This document shows positions 8,467 to 62,261 of a stretch of DNA of 64,000 nucleotides, one piece after another (the stretch's first letter is position 1; each line of letters starts with the position of its first letter). The position numbers and the translations under genes are program-made. Below the pieces are notes generated by a model. The model was not told the origin of the DNA. It was given only the letters and a program-made list of their open reading frames with translations, and ran no database searches. Source of the stretch: Xylanimicrobium pachnodae JCM 13526 = NBRC 107786 (lineage in GTDB: Bacteria; Actinomycetota; Actinomycetes; Actinomycetales; Cellulomonadaceae); contig BCWJ01000004.1 of assembly GCA_001592145.1 (NCBI GenBank), positions 186,001-250,000 on the forward strand. The letters run 5' to 3'.

Positions 8467-10991
8467 CGCACCTCCTCGCGGTACGTGGTGTCCCGCACCT
8501 GCGCCCGCACGCGTGCGCCCGCCGCCACCGCGACGCCGACCACGCCGACGACCAGCGCCCCGGTCAGCGCGCCGGCCGGCGCCGCAGCCCACGCGAGCAC
8601 GGCCGGCGGTACCTGGTCGACCCCCGTCACCGTGCTCAGCACCAAGCCCGGTGCCACCCCCGCGCCGAGCGCCCACCCCCCGACGACGCCGAGCACCGCG
8701 CCACCCACGACGACGACACCGAGCTCGACGGCCCGTGACCGACCCTGCACGCGCGGCCCCACACCGATCGAGCGCAGTGCCACGACCTCACCCCGCCGGG
8801 CTCGCAGGCCCGCGTCGGCCGTGACCCCCACGCCCAGGACGGCAAGGGCCACGACGCCCGCGGCGGCGATCCACGTGGCCGCACGCACCGGGCCGGAGGC
8901 ATCCGCGCCGGGAGCCGCCGTCGCCGGGGTCACCACGGTGGTGCCGGGCAGCGCCTCCTCGACGGCGGCGGCGACCCGGCGAGCCGCGGCGTCGTCGGAC
9001 GCGGACCACGCCCCGGCCCGAACCTCGGCCACGTCCGCCCAGACCTCGGCCGGGGCGGGGAGCTGCATGCGTGAGCGCAGGAGCGCCGCGTTGAGGTGGG
9101 CCAGATCCGCCATGGCCACCGCCGGCCGCAGCGCGCCGGGCATCGCCTCCACGGTGCCGCCCACCACGATCGGCACCCGCACCCCCAGCGCACCGAGCTC
9201 GAGGCGATCCCCGGTGCGCACGCCCAGGTCCGTGGCCAGCGAGGTGGTCACCACGGCCGCGACGGGGGCCGTGCCCAGGGCTGCGGGCGCAACCCGCAGC
9301 CGGTGGCGGGACCTGCCCGTGACCAGCAGGTCCGCACCCAACCCGGCGGCCTCACCGGCGCCCGTGCCCGAGCCCGCGCTCGCCCCCGCACCCGTGCCCG
9401 CCCCCGTGTCGCCCAGCACGGTCGTCCACGACGCTGTGAGGTCCACCGGTTCCCGGTGGTCCTGAACCAGCGCCGCCACGCCGTCGACGGCGAACCGGAG
9501 CTGGAGCGCCTCACGGGCGCCGACGACGTCGAGGTCCAGAGCGACCAGTCGCCAGCCGTGCGCGGGCCTGGGGAGCTCGAGGCGGATCGTCGACGAGGTG
9601 GGCCCCGGGCCTCCCTCGGTGAACGCCCCCAGGGGGAACCCCGCCAGCGCCCCGTCGGCGCGAGCCAGCCACAGCGTGGCGGCGGGGAAGCCGGGAGGCT
9701 CGTCGGCGCCGCCCACCGTCGGGGTGCCGTAGGCCGTGCCCGCGAGCGCCACGCTCGCCGTGACGCCCACCTCGAGCGCCGTCGTCCCGTCGGGCAGCGT
9801 GGGCGCCCCCGGGAACGGGTCTGCGCCACCACGCAGGACGCCGTCCACCGTGGCGGCGTCGGACGCCCGCGTGGTCCGCACGACGCCGGCTGCGGCAGCG
9901 GCCGGGACCGCGAGCACCGTGGGCTTGACGTGCTGGACCGACGTCTCCAGCCGCAGCACCGGTACCGCGGCGTCGACCCCGGTCACGGCGGCCACGACAT
10001 CGGCGTCGGCCCCGGTCAGCCCCTGCGCAGGGGTGACACCGGAGCGGGTCACCCGCACGTCGGCGCCCGCGGCCAGCACCCCGACGTCGCCCGCCATGCG
10101 CTGTGCCGTGCCCGCGTACACACCCGCGAACGCAGCCGACCCGGCGGCGAGCACCACGAGCACGAGCGGCACCGCGGAGGCGACCAGGCGCCGCCCCGCC
10201 TGACGCACCGTGACGACGGCGAGGCCCGGATGGCGCGCGACCACCCGCTCCGCCAGCCGGGCCAGAGGACCCAGCACCGCCACGGCCACCACCACGAGCG
10301 AGGCGAGCACCAGAGCCGGCGCGGAGGCAGCGAGAGGGTCGGTGCGCGTCCCGCCGTCGGCCGCGACGACCAGCGGTGAGCCGTAGCGCCGCAGCTGCAC
10401 CAGAGCCACCAGCGCGACCAGCACCGTGAGGACGACGACGCCGCCCGTCGCGACCTGGCGCGCCCGACCCGACCGGTCCGCGAGCGACCGGCGGGCCGCG
10501 GCGTGCACGCCGATCGCCGTCGTCGCCGAGAGCAGGATCGCCGCGACCAGCGCCACGCAGGCCCCCACGACGACGAGCAGCCACGGCTCGGCGGGCCGCC
10601 CCGCACCGCGCAGCACGGCAGCGGCCACCACCGTGCCCGCACCCGCCCCGATCAGGCACACGACGGCAGCCTCGGCCACCGCGAACGCGGACACCTGCGC
10701 CGGGCCCGCGCCGCGGGACAGCAACAGCTCGGTCTCCGCGCGCCGCTCCTGGCCGAGCAGGCGGCCCACCTGCGCCACCGTGACCAGTGCGGCCACCACG
10801 AGCAGCGCCACCGGCACACCCGCTCCCGCCACCACCGCCGTGCGGGCGGCCGGCACCGCGGCCGCCCCGGACCGGACCACCGCCAGCGTGGCCACGAGCA
10901 TCGCCGCCAGCACGGCGACGAGCGCCCCGACCAGCGCGAGCAGCGCGCGTTGCGTCCCGGCTCGGCGGGCCAGCAGCACGGCTCTGCTCAC
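8463..10991 (-). CDS. Large FtsX-family ABC transporter permease, second copy
   Basis: 842-residue permease with the same duplicated FtsX layout as its neighbour: N-terminal helix (LLALVGALVAVLAAMLVATL), the cytoplasmic coupling element (GQERRAETELLLSRGAGPAQ), several central helices, a long extracytoplasmic domain and a final helix group including another coupling motif (RRGEVVALRSIGVGPRVQG). The GTG at 10991 is preferred over longer forms because AGAGGTGA precedes it at good spacing and the protein then begins close to the first helix; the longer N-terminus is Arg/Ser-rich and implausible. It is the first of four overlapping genes. The two permeases probably form a heterodimer. Confidence 0.85.
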   Translation of the reverse strand: MSRAVLLARRAGTQRALLALVGALVAVLAAMLVATLAVVRSGAAAVPAARTAVVAGAGVPVALLVVAALVTVAQVGRLLGQERRAETELLLSRGAGPAQVSAFAVAEAAVVCLIGAGAGTVVAAAVLRGAGRPAEPWLLVVVGACVALVAAILLSATTAIGVHAAARRSLADRSGRARQVATGGVVVLTVLVALVALVQLRRYGSPLVVAADGGTRTDPLAASAPALVLASLVVVAVAVLGPLARLAERVVARHPGLAVVTVRQAGRRLVASAVPLVLVVLAAGSAAFAGVYAGTAQRMAGDVGVLAAGADVRVTRSGVTPAQGLTGADADVVAAVTGVDAAVPVLRLETSVQHVKPTVLAVPAAAAAGVVRTTRASDAATVDGVLRGGADPFPGAPTLPDGTTALEVGVTASVALAGTAYGTPTVGGADEPPGFPAATLWLARADGALAGFPLGAFTEGGPGPTSSTIRLELPRPAHGWRLVALDLDVVGAREALQLRFAVDGVAALVQDHREPVDLTASWTTVLGDTGAGTGAGASAGSGTGAGEAAGLGADLLVTGRSRHRLRVAPAALGTAPVAAVVTTSLATDLGVRTGDRLELGALGVRVPIVVGGTVEAMPGALRPAVAMADLAHLNAALLRSRMQLPAPAEVWADVAEVRAGAWSASDDAAARRVAAAVEEALPGTTVVTPATAAPGADASGPVRAATWIAAAGVVALAVLGVGVTADAGLRARRGEVVALRSIGVGPRVQGRSRAVELGVVVVGGAVLGVVGGWALGAGVAPGLVLSTVTGVDQVPPAVLAWAAAPAGALTGALVVGVVGVAVAAGARVRAQVRDTTYREEVR

Positions 10992-43784: not shown

Positions 43785-46700
43785 TCACGCCGCCACGCGC
43801 GGGGCGATCGCCTCCATCTGGGCGATGACCAGGCGGATGGCTTCGGGCTGCTTGTCCGGCGGGTAGCGGTGCTTGATGAGCAGCCGCTTGATGGAGGAGC
43901 GCAGCTTGGCCCTGACGTCGTCGCGCACGCGCCAGTCCGTCTTGATGTCACGGCGCATCACCGCCACCAGCTCGCGGGCGATCTCCGCGAGCTTGTCCTC
44001 GCCCTGGAGCAGCACCGCGGAGTCGTTCTGGGACACGGCGTCGTAGAAGGCCAGCTCGTCGTGGCCCAGCGGCGGGTCGAACTGCTGGCCGCGCAGCGCC
44101 TCGGCGGCCAGGTCCGCACCCATCTCGACGAGCGCCGCGATGACCTCCGCCGAGGTCAGGTTCGCGTTGGTGTAGCGGGTCATGATCGCTTCGAGCCGTT
44201 GCGAGAACACCTGCTGGCGCGTCAGGTTGCCGCGCGTCAGCCGTCCGGACTCCTGGGTGATCAGGGCGCGCAGGGCTTCGATCGCGAGCTGCGGGTGCGG
44301 GGTCGCCTGGGCTTGCGCCAGGAACTCCCGGTCGAGCTGGTCGAGCCGGGGCCGTTCCAGCCCGGCGGCCGCGTAGACGTCGACGACGTCGCGCGCGTCC
44401 ACGGAGGCGTCCGCGAGCGCCGCGAGCAGGCGCTGCACCTCCTCGGGGACGGCCTCGCCGCGGCTCTGGCGTTCCTGCGCGTCGAGCTTGCCCATCCAGA
44501 CGCGCACCTCCTCGTAGAAGCGCACCTCCTGGGCGAGGTCGGCGAGGGTCTCCTGGTGCCCGGCGACGGCCCACGCGCGGACCAGTGCCTGGGCACGGCG
44601 CCGGAACGAGTCGGCGAGCGTCTCCCCGTCGTAGGGCCCGCCGCTGGGGCGCCCGTCGGCGGCACGCGCGTTGCCGGGGGTCTGCGGGCTGCGCAGCCAG
44701 CCGACGACGTGCCAGACGGCGTCGATCCAGGCGCGCGGGGGCGCGGCCCCGTTCAGCCGGTCCCGCCACGCGGTGGGCGCCAGGAGGGTGCGGAGCTGGT
44801 CCACGACGTCGCGCACGGCGGCCGCGACCTCGGCGACGTCGCGGCCCACGGGCTGCTCGGCGCGGTCCTGGTCGGTGTACTCGGCGAGCGCGGCGCGCAG
44901 GTTCTCGGCCAGGGGCGCGTACCCGACCATGAGGCCGGAGTTCTTGCCGCGGAAGGTGCGGTTGACGCGCGCGAGGGTCTGCATGAGCAGGGCGCCGCGC
45001 AGCGGCCGGTCCAGGTAGAGGGTGTGCAGGGACGGCGAGTCGTAGCCGGTGAGCAGCATGTCCTTGACCAGCACGATCTCGAGCTCGTCACCCGGGTCCT
45101 TGAGGCGTTGCACGACGACGGCGTTCTCGGAGTCGCGGCGCACGTGGTCGGCGATCGGGGGCTGGTCGGCGGCGGTGCCGGAGTAGAGCACCTTGATGCG
45201 CCCGGCGTGCAGGTCGTCGCTGTGCCACCGGGGGCGCAGCCTCACGATCTGTTCGTAGAGGCGGGCGCAGATCTCGCGGGTGCCGCAGACGACGAGGGCC
45301 TTGCCGGGGGCGGGGGTGGTGGTGTCGCCTGTCGAAACCGCCGGGTGCAGCGGGGCCACGAGCTCGTGCATGTCGTCGCGGCGCCGCTCCCAGTGCGCGA
45401 CGAGGTCCTCGGCCAGCGCGGTCAGCCGGGCGGGCGCCCCGTAGACGGCGTTGACGACGGCGACGGACCGTTCGATGCGTTCGCGTTCCACGTCGTCGAG
45501 GCCCACGGTGGCCTCGTCCGCGGCGGCGTCGATGGTGTCGGCGTCGACGTCGTCGGCGAAGGTGACCTTGACCAGGCGCGGCTCGAAGTACACGGGCACG
45601 GTGGCGCCGTCGGCGACGGCGCGCGTGAGGTCGTAGGTGTCGATGATGTCGCCGAACACCCGCCGGGTGTCCCGCTCCCCCTGCGCGATGGGGGTGCCGG
45701 TGAACGCGATGAGGGTGGCGTTCGGCAGGGCGTTCTTGAGGTGCCAGGCGTACCCGTCGAGGTTGTCGTAGTGGCTGCGGTGGGCCTCGTCGACGATGAG
45801 CACGATGTTGTTGCGCGTCGAGAGCACGGGGTGCCTGGCGCCGGACTTCTTCTCCGCGGCGGTCAGGCCGAACTTCTGCAGGGTGGTGAAGTAGATGCCG
45901 CCCGTGGTGCGCGAGGCGAGCTCGTCGCGCAGCTCGGCGCGGCGCTCCACCTTGTGCGGCGCCTCGGCCAGCAGCTGGGAGCGGGCGAACGTCTCGTAGA
46001 GCTGCGTGTCCAGGTCGGTGCGGTCGGTGACCACCACGATGGTCGGGTTCAGCAGTTGCGGGTGGCGGGCGATGGCCGCCGCGTACAGCTCCATCTCCAT
46101 GGACTTGCCGGAGCCCTGCGTGTGCCAGACGACGCCGGCCCGCCCGTCGCCGGCGACGGCCTGGACGGTGCGCCCCACCGCCTTGGTCACGGCGAAGTAC
46201 TGATGCGGCTTCGCGACCCGCTTGTGCAGTCCGGCGTCGTCGGCGTCGAACGCGACGAACCCGCGCAGGAGCTGGAGGAACCGTTCCGGGTTGAACAGAC
46301 CGGAGAGCAGCACCTCGAGCGGCGTCATCTGGCCGGTGGCCCCCACCAGCCCGTCCTCGCCCACGAGCCGCAGATGGTCGCCCTCCGGGCGTCCGTCCGG
46401 GCCGACGACGCGGCCGTCGTCGTCGACGTTCCACGGTGCGTAGTGGTTCAGGGAGGTGAACGGCGTGCCGTACTTGGCGACGACGCCATCACTGATCACG
46501 GTGAGCACGCAGAACCGGAACGCCATCGGCAGCTCGCGCACGTACGTGGTGACCTGGGCGTGCGCGGAGGCGACGTCGGCGTGCGGGCTACCCGCGTTCT
46601 TGAGCTCCAGGATCACCACGGGCAGGCCGTTGAGGTACAGCACGACGTCGAAGCGCCGCTCCACCTCCCCGTCGGTCACGGTGACCTGGTTGACGGCCAG

Positions 46701-47132
46701 CCACTCGTTGTCCTCCTCGCGGTGGGAGACGAGACGGACCGTCGGGGTCTGCTCGCGGCCGTCCTCGATGAACGTGATGCGGAACCCCGCCGTGAGGAGG
46801 TCGTGGCCGCGCTTGTTCTCCGTGATCGCGTCCTGCGAGGTGGGCCGCAGGATCTGCGCGATCGCCTGCTCCTGGAACTCGCGCGGCACCTCCGGGTTCA
46901 GCCGGCGCACCGCCGCGCGCAGGCGGGACGGGATCGCCAGGTCGGCCCACGACTCGCGCTGCGGCTGCTCCCCCAGCGCCGCGTAGGACGGGTGCCCCGC
47001 GCCGCTCGTCGCGCCCGGTGCGATCGCCGAACCCGGCAGCGGCAACCAGCCCAGCGGCTCCGCCAGGTACTCCAGCGCGAGCGCCTCCCAGTCGGCCTCG
47101 TGCGCGGGCGGGGTGGTGGCGAGGGCAGGCAC
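43785..47132 (-). CDS. hsdR: Type I restriction enzyme, motor/nuclease subunit HsdR
   Basis: 1115 residues. The N-terminal HSDR_N nuclease domain has the E-x-K element (NGLPVVILELKNAG, around residue 174). The SF2 motor follows: Walker A WHTQGSGKSMEMEL (about 340), DEAH box LIVDEAHRSHYDNL (about 445), motif III AFTGTPIAQGE, and motifs V-VI (DMLLTGYDSPSLHTLYLDRP, LMQTLARVNRTFRGKNSGL). A helical C-terminal region ends in the DUF3387-like segment (IKTDWRVRDDVRAKLRSSIK, RLLIKHRYPP). GTG 47132 is preferred because GGAGG sits 4 bases upstream; ATG 47165 is also in frame. Its partners hsdM and hsdS lie about 9 kb away on the same strand. A 13-base fragment of the dispersed palindrome is embedded at 45327-45339. 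Confidence 0.94.
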   Translation of the reverse strand: MPALATTPPAHEADWEALALEYLAEPLGWLPLPGSAIAPGATSGAGHPSYAALGEQPQRESWADLAIPSRLRAAVRRLNPEVPREFQEQAIAQILRPTSQDAITENKRGHDLLTAGFRITFIEDGREQTPTVRLVSHREEDNEWLAVNQVTVTDGEVERRFDVVLYLNGLPVVILELKNAGSPHADVASAHAQVTTYVRELPMAFRFCVLTVISDGVVAKYGTPFTSLNHYAPWNVDDDGRVVGPDGRPEGDHLRLVGEDGLVGATGQMTPLEVLLSGLFNPERFLQLLRGFVAFDADDAGLHKRVAKPHQYFAVTKAVGRTVQAVAGDGRAGVVWHTQGSGKSMEMELYAAAIARHPQLLNPTIVVVTDRTDLDTQLYETFARSQLLAEAPHKVERRAELRDELASRTTGGIYFTTLQKFGLTAAEKKSGARHPVLSTRNNIVLIVDEAHRSHYDNLDGYAWHLKNALPNATLIAFTGTPIAQGERDTRRVFGDIIDTYDLTRAVADGATVPVYFEPRLVKVTFADDVDADTIDAAADEATVGLDDVERERIERSVAVVNAVYGAPARLTALAEDLVAHWERRRDDMHELVAPLHPAVSTGDTTTPAPGKALVVCGTREICARLYEQIVRLRPRWHSDDLHAGRIKVLYSGTAADQPPIADHVRRDSENAVVVQRLKDPGDELEIVLVKDMLLTGYDSPSLHTLYLDRPLRGALLMQTLARVNRTFRGKNSGLMVGYAPLAENLRAALAEYTDQDRAEQPVGRDVAEVAAAVRDVVDQLRTLLAPTAWRDRLNGAAPPRAWIDAVWHVVGWLRSPQTPGNARAADGRPSGGPYDGETLADSFRRRAQALVRAWAVAGHQETLADLAQEVRFYEEVRVWMGKLDAQERQSRGEAVPEEVQRLLAALADASVDARDVVDVYAAAGLERPRLDQLDREFLAQAQATPHPQLAIEALRALITQESGRLTRGNLTRQQVFSQRLEAIMTRYTNANLTSAEVIAALVEMGADLAAEALRGQQFDPPLGHDELAFYDAVSQNDSAVLLQGEDKLAEIARELVAVMRRDIKTDWRVRDDVRAKLRSSIKRLLIKHRYPPDKQPEAIRLVIAQMEAIAPRVAA

Positions 47133-47290
47133 GGGACCTCCAGCAGGGACGACGACGCGGCGCATCGTTGCTCGTGTGTGTGCTCGTGGTGAGCGTATCG
47201 GCGGGACGTCTCCGAGCATCACGCATGACGACGCCCGGGCGCTCGCGGCGCGACGATAACGGGGGTTTCAGCCCCACTGTGGCGGGGATC

Positions 47291-54958: not shown

Positions 54959-55933
54959 GTGGTCACCTATAGCAAGCCCTACAGGACCTTCGAGGAGCAG
55001 GCGCAACTGCTGGTGTCCCGCGGCATTCAACTGCGGTCGGACCGCGCGCTCTGGGCGCTCGAGCGGATCGGGTACTACCGGCTCAGCGGATACTGGTACC
55101 CGTACCGTCAGGTCGACACGGAGGGGAGCGACGCCGCCGGGAAGCCGGTTCGGCGGAGCAACGTCGTTCCCGGCACCGACATCGAGCAGATTCTCCGCCT
55201 CTACGAGTTCGATCGTCAGCTCAAGTTGCTTGTCATGGAGGCCATCGAGCGAGTTGAGGTGGCCCTGCGGGTCGAAATCGCGTACGTCTTGGGGAAGCGA
55301 CACCCCACCGCCCACCAACGGCCGGAGTGCCTTGACGGAAGGTTTACCAAGCCACGACCCGGTCGGCCGTCTCGACACGACGACTGGCTCCGCAAGTTCG
55401 ATGAGCACCTCGACCGATCATCTGAGGAGTTCGTCGAGCACTTCAAGCGCAAGTACGACGGCGATCTTCCGGTCTGGGTGGCCATCGAGGTTCTTGACTT
55501 CGGTTCGATGTCGATACTGTTCCATGGGTGCAAGCCCCCGGACCGCAGCATGATCGCGGATCGGCTAGGAGTCGTCGACGCCACCGGTGTAGGCGACGGC
55601 AAGGCCCTCGGGAACTGGCTCCGCGTCCTGAACCTCCTCCGGAACACGTCCGCGCATCACGCGCGGCTCTGGAACCGCAACCTCGTCGATCAGGTCGCAA
55701 CATCCCGAGTCGGCCACATCCGCGAGCTGGCGCACCTGTCCAGCCTGAGTGCCCGCGACCTCGCTCGCGTCTATCCAGCCATCACGGTTCTCTCCTGGCT
55801 GTTGAAGTCGGTCGACCCAACGACCGACTGGGTCGACCGACTTCGCGAACTGCTCGGGCGGTTCCCGTCAGATGGCGTCGTGGCCCTCGCCGACATGGGT
55901 GTTCCCGCCGCATGGAGAGAACTACTCAACTGA
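54959..55933 (+). CDS. Abi_2 (AbiD/AbiF-like) HEPN-type abortive-infection protein
   Basis: 324 residues. Opens with the Abi_2 signature YSKPYRTFEEQAQLLVSRGI, then ALERIGYYRLSGYWYPYRQ, EQILRLYEFDRQLKLLVMEA and IERVEVALRVEIAYVLGKRH. The HEPN ribonuclease motif R-x4-6-H is present in LLRNTSAHHARLWN (around residue 228). A helical C-terminus follows. Abi_2/AbiF proteins give phage-resistance phenotypes, presumably through RNA cleavage that stops growth. The GTG start has AGGGGA upstream. It is preceded by a three-hairpin candidate RNA and converges on a 5'-nucleotidase gene, with a 12-base overlap of their 3' ends. Confidence 0.9.
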   Translation: MVTYSKPYRTFEEQAQLLVSRGIQLRSDRALWALERIGYYRLSGYWYPYRQVDTEGSDAAGKPVRRSNVVPGTDIEQILRLYEFDRQLKLLVMEAIERVEVALRVEIAYVLGKRHPTAHQRPECLDGRFTKPRPGRPSRHDDWLRKFDEHLDRSSEEFVEHFKRKYDGDLPVWVAIEVLDFGSMSILFHGCKPPDRSMIADRLGVVDATGVGDGKALGNWLRVLNLLRNTSAHHARLWNRNLVDQVATSRVGHIRELAHLSSLSARDLARVYPAITVLSWLLKSVDPTTDWVDRLRELLGRFPSDGVVALADMGVPAAWRELLN

Positions 55934-56866
55934 CGGCTCATCCTCCTGGTTCGCAACCCCATACGGGATGTGCACACTCGGGGCCACGGCAGCGGTCGAG
56001 TCGAGGTGTGGGCGCTGATCGTCGAAGAAGATATGCGGCTTCATCACGTCGAGCACCTTGCCCTTGTCGACTCCACCCAGGAAGAACGCATCGTTGACCG
56101 TGACACCCCAGCCCTCCAGGGTACGGATCGCGCGTTCGTGAGCGGGGGCGTTCCGCGCCGTCACGATCGCGACCCGGACGCGCGGCTCGTACGCCGGGTC
56201 AGTACGCCGGTGCGCTGCCTCGACACCCTGGATCCTGTTGATGTCTCGCAGAAAGGCACTCAACGGCCCTGGGCGGAGCGGTTCATCCTGATTCTTACGC
56301 TCATGTTCCCGGAAATCGTCGATCCCGCGCTGCTGGTAGATCCGCTCCGATGCATCGTCGGCGAGCACGCCGTCGAAGTCGAACGCGATTCGCAGTTCTT
56401 CCCCCGGTTCGTGTGCAAGCATTGCCGACTCCAGCACCTGGCCGGCGGGTAGGCCGCTCCTGATCGCAGCGCGAACGTCGCCGGAGTTGGCCGACAGGAA
56501 CAGCGACATGTCGAGAGCCCGCATGTACTCGAACGGAGCCCGCCCCTGCGTGAACACCGACCGAGTGATCTCCAGGCCGTGTGTGGCGATCGATCGCATC
56601 ACGCGGAGCCCGGTCGACGGATCGTTCCGCGAGAGAATGATCACCTCCACTATCGGATCTTCCGGGCTCAGGTCGTTGAGACCAAGCAGCCGCTTGACGA
56701 ACGGGAACGCGACGCCGGGCTCAAGCGTGTCGTCGATATGCGCGGCCTGATACAGCCGGTAAGCCTCTTCCCCCTGGGCCCGGAAGACACCGTCTGACTC
56801 AGTCAGGTCGAACAGTGCACTGGATGCGATCCCGACAACGAGCCGCTCGCCAAGCTCAAAAGGCAC
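55922..56866 (-). CDS. Cytosolic 5'-nucleotidase (NT5C1-like, PF06189 type) coupled to hsdS
   Basis: 314 residues. Matches the family of vertebrate cN-I and bacterial homologues: LVVGIASSALFDLTESDGVF, EEAYRLYQAAHIDDTLEPGV, AFPFVKRLLGLNDL, VEVIILSRNDPSTGLRVMRS, RAPFEYMRALDMSLFLSANS. The HAD-type catalytic motif is IAFDFDGVLADDASERIYQQ, a second is VRVAIVTARNAPAHERAIRT and the acidic motif is KPHIFFDDQRPHLDS. It dephosphorylates nucleoside monophosphates. The GTG at 56866 has GGAGGGAGG upstream and overlaps the hsdS stop by 11 bases, so it is the fourth gene of the restriction operon. Confidence 0.88.
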   Translation of the reverse strand: MPFELGERLVVGIASSALFDLTESDGVFRAQGEEAYRLYQAAHIDDTLEPGVAFPFVKRLLGLNDLSPEDPIVEVIILSRNDPSTGLRVMRSIATHGLEITRSVFTQGRAPFEYMRALDMSLFLSANSGDVRAAIRSGLPAGQVLESAMLAHEPGEELRIAFDFDGVLADDASERIYQQRGIDDFREHERKNQDEPLRPGPLSAFLRDINRIQGVEAAHRRTDPAYEPRVRVAIVTARNAPAHERAIRTLEGWGVTVNDAFFLGGVDKGKVLDVMKPHIFFDDQRPHLDSTAAVAPSVHIPYGVANQEDEPSVE

Positions 56867-58141
56867 GGGGCCTCCCTCCGTCAAGACGCACCCTTGCCAC
56901 ATCGTCGGCCGCAGGCGAGCGCACATCGTCGACGATGCGCTCGGCGTCACTGACGCGCAGACGGCCCGACATCAGCGCGGGCAGCAGGGCGTCGCGCGTG
57001 GTGGCCAGCGCAGAGTTCTCGTGCAACGCGGCACTCGCCCGGGCGTGGAGGGGCGCGACGCGCGCTCCGAATGTGAACATCGTCTGCTCATCGGCGAGCG
57101 TCACAGGCAGCTTCTTGAAGTTGCCCCGCGAGAGCTCCATGAACGTCGCACCGTTCGCGTGGTCGAGGTACTCGGAAACTCGGCTGCGCATCTCGTGGAA
57201 CAGCCAGTACCGCAACCTCTCGTCGTGAGGCTGGACGACGATAAACCCTTGGTTCACGGCCATCGGCGCTTCCGCGACCGCGAACGCACCGATGGTCGCC
57301 CTCGATGTCATGAAGATGCTTCCCACCGGATAGAGGGCTGACGACGTCGCCGCGAGGCCCGCCTCCGTGATCGTTCGACTGGTCCGCGAGACATAGGGCC
57401 CGTTCAGGCCCGTGACATCGGTCGGCGTCAGCCACAGGACGTCGCCATCCCAGTACTCGGGAACCGTTGACCGAGGGGTCCCGCCACCGCCGACGCTCGC
57501 AACATCCGCATAGGTTCGGCTACCGGACTTCGCGGAAGCCGCCGCCTTGAGAAACTCCGCGCAGGCGAGTTCGTCGGCCGTGGTGGCGAGTTTGGTGTTG
57601 GTCGCGATCTTGTCGTCAAGGGATCCCAAGACCTCGGCGATCGCCCGCTGCTCGCACAGCGGTGGCGTAGGAAGCACTGCTGAGCGAATGATCCTCGCGT
57701 TCAGATTCTGCTGAGCCGCTCCATTCGCTAGTCCTGCAATATCTCCTCGCGTTAGGAGTAGCGCATAAAACAGCCAGCGCGCGTCGGCTTCGCAAGGGTC
57801 CACGACCATCGCGCATGCCGCTTGGTTGCATGCGGCCGGCACAGACAACCAGCCAAGTCGCCCAACCGTTGCTCCATACATCGCCATCAACACCGTACCC
57901 GCTGGGAGAATCTTCGCGGAGGAGTTGGAAACCCCACTGAGAGAAATATATTCTTCGCAGTCAGCCACCACTGCATCAGACAGGTCTCCGGTCTTTACCC
58001 ACGGTACTGTCGCGGGCGAGAAAAAATCGGGACGTTTCCGAGACGGCGTCCCCCCGCTCGTAACACGTTGACAAAGTGACTCAAGCGTCCGCAGACCCCA
58101 CCTCGGATTCGCGCCGTGAAGCTCAGCGACGGTGTTGCCCT

Positions 58142-58145
<4 letters not shown>
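56856..58145 (-). CDS. hsdS: Type I restriction enzyme specificity subunit HsdS
   Basis: 429 residues with the usual two target-recognition domains and two conserved helical spacers. TRD1 begins LRTLESLCQRVTSGGTPSRK, with VPWVKTGDLSDAVVADCEEY and MAMYGATVGRLGWLSVPAAC. The first spacer is LPTPPLCEQRAIAEVLGSLD followed by DDKIATNTKLATTADELA. TRD2 has VASVGGGGTPRSTVPEYWDG and DVLWLTPTDVTGLNGPYVSR; the second spacer (LHENSALATTRDALLPALMS, GRLRV) ends the protein. GTG 58145 overlaps the hsdM stop as GTGA. The central part is lower in GC (AT-rich patch near 57900-58030), normal for horizontally exchanged TRDs. Confidence 0.93.
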
Positions 58146-59748
<1,603 letters not shown>

Positions 59749-59749
<1 letters not shown>

Positions 59750-61857
59750 TAGGCGTCCTTCCGGATGGGGTCGGGGGTGGCGTCGGGGTCGGGCTGGTCG
59801 GGGTCATTGTGGCGGAGGCGTACGACACCCGTGGTCACGCCGTCGGCCAGCGTGGTGGCAAGCGCGTCCAGGTCGGCGATCCGGCGTCGGGCGGCGTCGG
59901 CGGCAGCACGCACCTCGCGTAGCGCACGGCCGACGGCGTCGGCCTGCGTGGCGGGCACGAGCCGCACCTCCCAGGTGCGCCACCACTTGGCACCGGGGGC
60001 CTGGCTGCCGACGTCGGCGGCGAGCACCTCGGGAACCAGGACCGGGGTGGCGGGGCGGGTGCCTTCGACAGGCTCAACCACCGGGGGCGGCGTGACGCGC
60101 AGCACCTGGGCGGGGTACTCGACCACGGAGAAGCCGTCGACGTCGACAGCGGCGGCCGGGCGCGGCGCAGTGGTGAAGACGACGTCGCCGGGCTCGGTGA
60201 GCCGGGCGGCCGCGGCGGTGGCGACGGCGAACGTGTCCACCGACCGCGCACCCCAGGCGGCGTCGCCGAGGATCTCGGACACCCCGAGCACACGCGTGCT
60301 GCCAGGGCCGGCGACGCCCGCGGTCACGCGATTCGGGTCCACCCGGTTGCCGGCGATACGACGCACCCGCCCCTGGGCGGCGAGCGTGCCGAGCGGGATG
60401 CGGCTCACCGTGCGCGCGGCACCCCGCTCCACCCGCAGGCCCGCGAGCGGTGCGGTCGCGGAGGGTGCAGTCCCGGCCGCGAGCTCGAGGACCCGCACTG
60501 CCGCGGCCCCGCCGTCGTCGTGCGCTCCCGCAAGCACGTGCCGGCCCGCGGTCGCGAGGCTGCCGCCGCGGGCCAGGAGCTCGCGGACCAGCACGAACCG
60601 GGCGAAGCGGAAGGCGTGCCCGCGGACATCACGTGAGCTGCCGAGCGCAGAGACAACATCGGTGAGCAGATCGTCGAGAACCGCCCGCGGCAGCGGCTCC
60701 CTCGCGGCGAGCGGGTGCTCACTGAGGTCGGCGATCATGGTCCACCGCTCGGCGATGGCCACCGACGGGTGCGCGTCGCCCAGCACCCACAACGCGAGGC
60801 GCTGACGAGCCCGCTCCACCACCAACCCGGGCGGGAGCAGCACCACGGCGCGCAGCCGGTCGGTACGCAGCAGCGCGGCCCGGGCCGACTCGACGGCCGG
60901 GGCCGCGGCCTCCACGAGGGCGCTCGCAGGGCCGAGCACCACGGCGCGCTGCCCCGGATGCAGGCCGAGCACGATGTCGTCGACCCGGGCCAGCACGGCC
61001 ACGTCGTCGAGCTCGGGCTCGCCCGCGGCGGGGATGGCGGTGACGACGACGCGGCCCGGGTCCGGGGTGTCTCCCGTCGCCTCCACGTCCCAGCCGTGTG
61101 CGGCCAGGCGCCGCCGCGCCAGGCGACCCGACGCTCCGGCGGGCACCCGCGCGAGCGGCGTGTCCAGGTGGTTCGACGCGGCCAGCACCGCGTGCAGCAC
61201 GTCACCCGCACCAGGGTGCGGGTCAGCCACCAGGCCCACTCCGTCGATGCTGCCGATGCCGCCGACGACGGCGGCGACCAACGAGAGTCCGGCCGGGTGC
61301 AGCGCCGACGCCGCCAGCTGTTCGTCCCGGACACGGAACCGCTGCGCGAGCAGGGCCTCCACCGCAGCGCCGGGCGTGTACGCGGCGGACGCCGCCAGGT
61401 CCGCGAGCGCGCCGGTGCGCTCCACCTCCTCGCCGAGCGCCACGACCTCGCGATAGAGGAAGGCGTCGTCCGGGTCGAGCTCGTCCGCCAGGTCGAGGAC
61501 CTCTGCCCGGGGTACCCCGGTGAGCGGGGCGGACGTGTACGCCTTGATCGCGAGCAACGCCGCCAGGCCGTCGCGTCGCTCGCGTTCGCCGAGCACCGAC
61601 TCGGCGTCGTCGAGCACCGCCCGCAGCGCCACATCCGCGCCGAACGCCGCGTTGTTGCCGAGTCCCGTCGCTTCGATCCAGCCGACGACGTCGGAGGCGC
61701 GGAACCGCGGGGCCCCCTCGTGGACGGCAACCGGCGCCGGGAAGGGCCGCGCACCGCCGGCGTGGCGACGCCGCCACGTGGACACCACCGGACGCTGAAC
61801 GTGCGCCAGCTCGGCGACGTCGGGCAGGGACAGGCGCAGGCCGTCGAGAACGTCCAC
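59749..61857 (-). CDS. HTH plus degenerate N6-methylase-like plus HsdS-like hybrid protein heading the hsdMS operon
   Basis: 702 residues; start GTG 61857 with AGGAGGT five bases upstream. Residues ~8-65 form a MerR/AlpA-like HTH (LSLPDVAELAHVQRPVVSTW, PRFRASDVVGWIEATGLG). A central region keeps the HsdM outline: YTPGAAVEALLAQRF (~158) for the FYTP string, and VADPHPGAGDVLHAVLAASN (~207) for motif I. The NPPF position instead reads VVVTAIPAAG (~267), so methyl transfer seems lost. The C-terminal ~150 residues resemble half of an HsdS: EPGDVVFTTAPRPAAAVDVD, then AKWWRTWEVRLVPATQADAV and a helical spacer. A half-copy of the dispersed palindrome encodes VVEPVE near residue 592. It overlaps hsdM by one base, so is part of the restriction system; role unknown. 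Confidence 0.7.
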
Positions 61858-61916
61858 GGGCCACCTCCTTCCGCGGGCCATCCTGCCTCATCGCGACCGG
61901 TTTCGGCGCCTAGTTG

Positions 61917-61934
61917 CGATAAGGGCCCTTATCG
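61917..61934. promoter_or_regulatory. Perfect 18-bp palindrome at the head of the restriction operon
   Basis: CGATAAGGGCCCTTATCG is self-complementary over all 18 bases, centred at 61925/61926. It lies 60 bases before the hybrid-gene start and 45 bases before the divergent DUF3892 gene. Such symmetric sites between divergent genes are typical operators; the hybrid protein's own HTH is one candidate ligand. Confidence 0.6.
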
Positions 61935-61979: not shown

Positions 61980-62261
61980 ATGCCGTTCATCCGAGCCATC
62001 AAGGTCGAGGAGCCCGGGACCCGCACCGAGCACGTGGTCGAGGTCCTGGTCTCCGACTTCACCACCAGCGCGCTCCGCGCCCTGCCCGTCGAGCAGGTGT
62101 GCACCGCGATCCGTCGCGGCTCGCGCTATCGCACGTTCGACGAGCGCACGGGCCGGCAGACCGACGTCGAGGCCCGCGTGGTGCGCGGCGGCCTGCGGCG
62201 TGTGACCACCGTGCGGGCCGGCGTCGAGACCGACGACCTGCTCAAGCTCCCGCGCATCTGA
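61980..62261 (+). CDS. DUF3892-like small protein
   Basis: 93 residues. Opens MPFIRAIKVEEPGTRTEHVV and ends GVETDDLLKLPRI, the latter matching the DNL(L)-x-LP ending of DUF3892 proteins. The middle has SVEQ-like PVEQVCTAIRRGSRYRTFDE and RVVRGGLRRVTTVRAG. Mostly beta strands by pattern. Function of the family is unknown. It is divergent from the restriction operon and 32 bases upstream of a membrane protein gene on the same strand. Confidence 0.75.
   Translation: MPFIRAIKVEEPGTRTEHVVEVLVSDFTTSALRALPVEQVCTAIRRGSRYRTFDERTGRQTDVEARVVRGGLRRVTTVRAGVETDDLLKLPRI

Follow-up and report, generated by a model that had tools for sequence, protein, structure and literature searches.

How type I restriction-modification (RM) systems are controlled on entering a new cell is little understood beyond the proteolysis of HsdR, and few dedicated type I transcription regulators were met in the literature that we searched (HsdC and RptR). 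RptR of Gammaproteobacteria is encoded by the gene that comes first in its type I RM locus, and has conserved binding sites in the promoter; it is a small helical homodimer that acts as a repressor through TAGCTA repeats lying over the -10 (PMC12255303). HsdC of Mycoplasma gallisepticum binds the promoter of its own operon, at the direct repeats (GTGTTAN5)2 (PMC5282649). In type II systems this task can fall to fusions of a helix-turn-helix (HTH) with a methylase (PMC12707154), e.g. M.SsoII, M.Ecl18kI and M.EcoRII, which are autoregulators with an N-terminal HTH and a methylase body that bind their own promoter (PMC3695355, PMC12707154). These are type II methylases, of the C5-cytosine kind for SsoII and Ecl18kI. 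The controller (C) proteins, HsdC among them, are dedicated HTH regulators encoded together with the RM genes under their control; by function, a C protein would activate both its own and the linked RM promoter. C proteins are small. Finally, Actinobacteria encode proteins with an HTH, an N6 methylase and half of an HsdS (e.g. at our locus L003), several of which still have motif I together with a string resembling motif IV (EPPF, HPPF or DPPY).

The window analysed here is a stretch of 64,000 nucleotides from Xylanimicrobium pachnodae, and we call the first gene of its type I RM operon, and the protein it encodes, X. X is like RptR in leading a type I RM locus with conserved sites in its promoter region, but it has 702 residues and a 16-bp palindrome upstream of the promoter. 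It is like the M.SsoII type in having an N-terminal HTH, a methylase body and an operator, recognized by sequence only, in its own promoter. Unlike that type, its body is of the N6 kind and has lost motif IV, it carries a half-HsdS, and it is encoded beside a separate HsdM with an intact NPPF. The direct repeats of HsdC also differ from the palindrome of X. X resembles the C proteins as an HTH regulator, in our reading, dedicated to the RM genes beside it; the layout of its promoter fits the C-protein function, for which we have no expression data, and X differs from C proteins in being derived from a methylase. It shares the three-part architecture of the L003-type proteins and represents a more degraded, hsdM-linked branch. 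What sets X apart from RptR, HsdC and the type II HTH-methylase fusions is that it is a methylase/half-S protein with degraded catalytic motifs, encoded next to an HsdM whose motifs are intact. Our analysis, which is computational only and includes no binding or expression data, suggests that X is probably a transcription regulator dedicated to the type I RM operon that it leads. No title or abstract start in the open-access literature searched describes an X-like protein; subscription journals and preprints were mostly outside the scope of this search.

Gene X and its domains

The features of the locus are collected in Table 1. According to the open reading frame, X starts at a GTG, and the stretch GGAAGGAGG (61872-61864) ends 6 bases 5' of this start. 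An alternative in-frame ATG at 61881 would give a protein of 710 residues, yet it lies inside the inferred promoter. The stop codon of X and the GTG start of hsdM have one base in common (TAGTG). A first-pass annotation, made from the sequence alone, had described this overlap and the 702-residue protein, together with an FYTP-like string (AYTPGAAVEAL), a motif I (DPHPGAG) and a VVVTAIP, and all of these held; the palindrome upstream of X was absent from it.

Table 1. Coordinates in the window of X, its predicted domains, the linked genes and the upstream elements
Feature	Position	Strand	Remark
X, HTH / N6-methylase-like (inactive as judged by motif) / half-HsdS protein	59749..61857	-	First gene of type I RM operon
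N-terminal HTH, residues 8-66	61660..61836	-	Model; invariant columns; weak profile matches
Recognition helix, residues 22-31 (RPVVSTWRRR)	61765..61794	-	Model; covaries with operator half-site
N6-methylase-like domain lacking catalytic motif IV (residues 184-380)	60718..61308	-	
Target-recognition-like domain (half HsdS), residues 485-635	59953..60405	-	hhalign to HsdS first half
HsdS-like long helix at the C terminus, residues 636-676	59830..59952	-	Model and hhalign
hsdM, NPPF intact	58142..59749	-	
hsdS, approximate start	56856..58148	-	
hsdR	43785..47222	-	Same strand as X, ~9.6 kb past hsdS
-10-like hexamer CAGGAT	61880..61885	-	32 nt past operator; imperfect against family consensus TANNNT
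Operator palindrome (putative) GATAAGGGCCCTTATC	61918..61933	none	Sole such site in the 4.0-Mb genome; conserved upstream of X

Several other genes were observed in the neighbourhood. An AbiD/Abi_2 gene (54959-55933, plus strand) and a gene of the 5'-nucleotidase family (55922-56950, minus strand), the latter a PADLOC candidate (PDC-S08), are located between hsdS and hsdR, and an Abi_2-like frame is likewise found between these two genes in locus L053. A divergent ORF of 93 residues (61980-62261, plus strand), whose match to DUF3892 falls under the curated cut-off, has the intergenic region in common with the palindrome. The genome also encodes a second and distant type I HsdM (contig C33, 6232-7704) with 37% identity to the HsdM of the window; it has a single match to X.

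We predicted the 3D structure of X with AlphaFold2 using an alignment of 61 members (mean pLDDT 89.7 and pTM 0.75). In the model the N-terminal HTH is followed by a helical stretch and an alpha/beta domain resembling a methylase, and then by a beta domain resembling a TRD, with a helix of 41 residues last. The top ten Foldseek matches are nine DNA-methylase chains, mostly titled type I and including 7eew, PacII M1M2S and StySJI M, and one type IIG enzyme, all with probability 1.0 and E-values of 2e-12 to 2e-8; the TM scores by query are modest (0.32-0.36) and the RMSD is large. Residues 485-683 align to the first half of HsdS with an E-value of 1.6e-6 (hhalign probability 90), and the match of the half-S region to the second half is weak (E-value 5.8e-4, probability 29). 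X has one TRD and one helix, and not the full HsdS layout of two TRDs and two conserved helical regions. Residues 15-40, in the HTH, hold 10 of the 21 invariant columns of the alignment, and the profile matches of the HTH are weak (HTH_17 and MerR_1 in two of 61 members each, LacI in one).

The single sequence of X has no match in Pfam, PADLOC or NCBIfam at E-values up to 1, or among PDB chains at E-values up to 10, and searches with the 61-member alignment gave weak or chance matches only. The N6_Mtase family (PF02384) does not match the X of the window and is matched weakly by six of the 61 members (best E-value 0.0072); PADLOC PDC-M06B is matched by 12 of them (best E-value 3.1e-4). A direct profile comparison of X with HsdM by hhalign gave nothing significant (probability 0.6). 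However, a set of seven L003-type sequences aligns with X over nearly the full length (E-value 7.5e-26) and with HsdM (E-value 1.3e-34), both being one-to-one E-values. The kinship of X with methylases therefore rests on the fold match and on this bridge, the direct comparison with HsdM being negative. We take the three-part architecture as shown, and the earlier reading of X as a methylase/specificity hybrid with an HTH held in the model, the Foldseek matches and the profile comparison; a predicted fold without methylase or TRD similarity, which would have refuted it, was not what we found.

The loss of the catalytic residues is likewise shown. In the search for motif IV, no [ND]PP[FYW] was found throughout 81 aligned sequences, and two of the 81 have an SPPW a few residues beyond the motif IV place. 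The catalytic degeneracy claimed earlier for the window (VVVTAIP in place of NPPF) is therefore confirmed, and we infer from the motifs that it is a trait of the X family and not specific to the window. That X is inactive as a methyltransferase is inferred by motif only and without an assay. The genome encodes a second HTH-methylase-half-S protein, L003 (contig C7, 61171-63336), which has 722 residues, a DPVCGIG and an EPPF, and its relatives elsewhere show HPPF, ETPF, DAPF, DPPA or DPPY at motif IV. Altered motif IV strings might be common across the HTH-methylase superfamily.

Distribution of X and its linkage to hsdM

The scan of genome contigs gave at least 110 relatives, and the best 80 were taken as loci. 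All titles but one are actinobacterial, and the exception is labelled Planococcus. In 74 of the 80 loci hsdM follows X directly on the same strand. Among the remaining six, the contig ends inside X or within ~110 nt of it in four (L046, L062, L071 and L091), and in L052 hsdM is 3 kb from X. The sixth, L051 (9980-12031), has X but no hsdM within the stretch fetched and could be an orphan regulator with a different layout. Where the hsdM start can be placed, it lies between -30 and +60 of the X stop in 66 of 67 loci, with the one-base overlap in 26 of the 67. Of the 75 loci that have hsdM, 72 also have an hsdS, and in the remaining three the sequence stops in or close to hsdM. In L045 (9667-12069) we observed an X frame-shifted within the HTH, with an intact operator at 9804.

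Eleven of 99 related genomes have a match to X, nine of them substantial, and in these nine X is encoded beside the best hsdM, scoring at least 764 bits (the hsdM of G022 is split); the next six hsdMs in the 99 genomes (634-515 bits) have no adjoining X. At the level of the order, 37 of 396 genomes match X, and in each of the 30 loci obtained X is followed by an hsdM of the same strand, at least seven of these loci repeating earlier loci and one (L191) being the window itself. At the level of the phylum, 13 of 396 genomes have any match, including six with the HTH only and three, the window among them, with all or most of X. An adjacency cut-off was passed by 33 of 43 loci. Below it, in six loci of the order sample as well as in L201 and L204, the hsdM frame opens earlier, inside X, the hsdM frame of L154 begins ~750 nt on, and the contig stretch of L203 shows no hsdM. 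The synteny of X with hsdM is thereby shown, and homologues found consistently away from hsdM, which would have counted against a function tied to the RM operon, were not observed (74 of 80 and 30 of 30 adjoin hsdM).

The palindrome, the promoter and the recognition helix

The sole strongly conserved element that we saw upstream of X is the palindrome GATAA-N6-TTATC, located ahead of the -10; its spacer is rich in G and C, and in many cases it extends to CTGATAA-N6-TTATCAG. At no more than 300 nt from the X match, an exact copy is found in 75 of the 80 loci, including L052 with a 5-bp spacer, and a copy with one mismatch in the other five. Random windows from the same loci gave 4 exact sites and 19 within one mismatch in 4000, and a separate random control gave 6 and 14 in 3842 windows. 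One of the two patterns used to fetch the 80 loci was the canonical recognition helix, and the uniformity of the operator among them is therefore partly conditional. Bias is lower in the order sample, for which a variant-helix query was used, but at least seven of its 30 loci repeat earlier ones. Six of its loci lack upstream DNA and were left out (L175, L184, L186, L187, L192 and L199). Among the 24 testable ones, 21 have a GATAA site with at most one mismatch, L173, L183 and L195 and, with one mismatch, L177 being counted here; the rest are L197, with two mismatches, and L170 and L172, with alternative half-sites.

Across the 99 related genomes the exact site occurs anywhere in 18, that is in eight of the nine X-bearing genomes and in 10 of the 90 others. 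It is located no more than 150 nt upstream of X in G000, G017, G022, G032, G057, G088 and G091; the operator of G015 has one mismatch, and the exact site of G003 is not beside its X. Among the other HTH-methylase relatives that were scanned, no GATAA-type operator with up to one mismatch was found in L003, L013, L014, L123, L124, L156-L161, L163, L164, L168 and L169, while the X relatives L154, L155 and L166 do carry one. L156 matches X only in part, in a frame of 303 residues whose upstream DNA may be truncated. When part of the HTH-methylase set was tested for palindromes of any kind, there was one match outside X, in L157, with 0.07-0.20 expected per region. We consider the operator as a conserved element to be shown; its binding by X is inferred without binding data.

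The spacing between the operator and the promoter is also shown. Past the operator, a TANNNT follows at 32-35 nt in 64 of 71 non-redundant promoters, and at 31-36 nt in 77 of the 80 loci. In a subset of the loci the end of the operator and the start codon are 44-48 nt apart, with ~6 bases between the hexamer and the start, and this short gap fits leaderless transcripts and hence supports the -10 assignment. The operator centre would be ~53 bp before the inferred transcription start. Such a position at about -53, with no conserved -35 hexamer in the 71 non-redundant promoters, suggests activation. Actinobacterial promoters often do not have a -35, and the missing conservation is for this reason a weak case. 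The layout thus suggests that X may activate its own operon; the effect on expression is inferred and not shown, and a repressor is not excluded. In L051 the operator is located ~17 nt ahead of a TAGCCT.

Some loci have further copies of the operator. In L052 the hsdM split off from X has another palindrome ahead of it, followed by a -10 at 33, and the hsdR frames of L024 and, with one mismatch, L036 are preceded by a palindrome with a -10 at 34. In L026 a second palindrome lies at the start of the open frame of hsdR with no clear -10 (no TANNNT). With up to one mismatch allowed, the 80 loci contain 23 additional sites, and these four are the ones placed at hsdM or hsdR. The second copies at these genes indicate that the operator can accompany RM promoters and not X alone. 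The exact extra sites not placed there are three in L079 and one in L091, and among the second exact sites of L079, L026 and L091, only the one at 9418 in L079 has a -10 at the usual place (32). The three in L079 (9418, 18849 and 20505) surround one X operon and could represent a small regulon. The detached hsdR of the window has no operator of its own in the site scan of the 4.0-Mb genome.

The half-site changes together with the recognition helix of X. The helix [ST]RPAVSQW (class B) is found with GTTAA-N6-TTAAC in five genomes of one genus (G783, G911, G897, G904 and G898), and the helix TRQAVTNW (class C) with GTTTA-N6-TAAAC in three (G003, G811 and G886). In locus L012 of G003, for example, the site is GTTTA-GCCCGC-TAAAC with a -10 at 32, and the GATAA site is absent. 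The genomes of both classes retain the 6-bp spacer and a -10 at 32-35. Where only the proline or its immediate vicinity is altered (L154, L183 and L195), the site is still GATAA. This covariation, itself shown, ties the HTH of X to the palindrome and is in our view the decisive result for the regulator reading, although the class changes represent few independent events, class B being found in one genus and class C in two genera of one family.

Possible roles of X

We propose the following model. The ancestor of X would be a self-contained HTH-methylase-half-specificity protein, and the catalytic site would have been lost later. Two HTHs of X, most likely joined in a dimer through the half-HsdS helix, would read the half-sites of the palindrome, whose centres are 11 bp apart, or about one helical turn; both the dimerisation and the binding are inferred. 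With the palindrome just upstream of the X-hsdM-hsdS promoter, and in a few loci also upstream of a detached hsdM or hsdR, X would activate its own operon in the manner of a C protein, and the RM system would be turned on only once X has built up. Activation rather than repression is again inferred. Points against this model are the poor -10 of the window itself (CAGGAT), the lack of an operator at its detached hsdR, the further sites, most of which do not lie ahead of hsd genes, and the layout of L051. A DNA-binding regulator of hsdMS was one of the three options offered by the first-pass annotation, and it is the one for which the operator, together with the way it covaries with the helix, speaks strongly.

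The conservation of X gives some indication of the role of its body. In 108 locus pairs with HsdM more than 85% identical, the identity is 30% for HsdS, 65% for the HTH of X and 60% for its TRD. X is more constant than HsdS, and so it seems to read something that stays constant as the specificity turns over. We speculate that the retained methylase/half-S body serves dimerisation, or the sensing of HsdM/HsdS or of a cofactor, all of which is inferred. In the type II regulator M.Ecl18kI, regulation survives the loss of methylation and needs the methylase domain (PMC3695355), which by analogy is a plausible precedent for the retained body of X.

An alternative hypothesis could be that X represses the operon from the same operator, by negative autoregulation like RptR, and is released by some signal. 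This remains possible. RptR and the mycoplasma C protein, the known type I regulators, repress (PMC12255303, PMC12707154), M.Ecl18kI represses its own gene (PMC3695355), and the operator of L051 is close to a -10-like hexamer. Against it, the operator ends 32-35 nt before the -10 (64 of 71), upstream of a would-be -35, whereas the sites of RptR overlap the -10.

A bolder reading, which we regard as doubtful, is that X is a mimic of M2S turned into a sensor-activator. Its body would dock with HsdM, or compete for HsdS or a cofactor, so that transcription of the operon would report the assembly of the modification complex, and an HTH-operator code of at least three specificities would insulate X-RM systems present in one cell.

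It is much less probable that X acts mainly as a fourth subunit or inhibitor of M2S through its half-S helix, with DNA binding merely localising it. The retained methylase and half-S folds and the one-base overlap with hsdM (26 of 67 loci) are in favour of such a role. But X has diverged far more than HsdM has, the identities in close pairs being 53% and 87%, respectively, and this role needs no operator at the promoter, no fixed spacing to the -10 and no covariation with the helix. The inhibition of M2S, an option raised earlier, is not excluded as a second activity.

Two other explanations are very unlikely. An alternative specificity factor giving HsdM a second target, also proposed earlier and suggested by the TRD-like domain, is disfavoured by the identity of that domain (60% where HsdS has 30%, 108 pairs), by its single copy and by the hsdS already present in 72 of 75 loci with hsdM. 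The view of the palindrome as the site of another regulator with X an unrelated passenger is left with the unmeasured binding of X in its support, and is opposed by the half-site changing with the recognition helix in two classes and by the distribution of the exact site, which is present in 8 of the 9 genomes with X and in 10 of the 90 without.

Under the preferred reading of X as a dedicated regulator of its operon, a methylase has apparently been converted to this role across many actinobacterial genera. The operator is predictable from the recognition helix, which makes the regulation testable in any such strain. The operator and X together provide a marker for annotating such operons, and a small helix-operator code.
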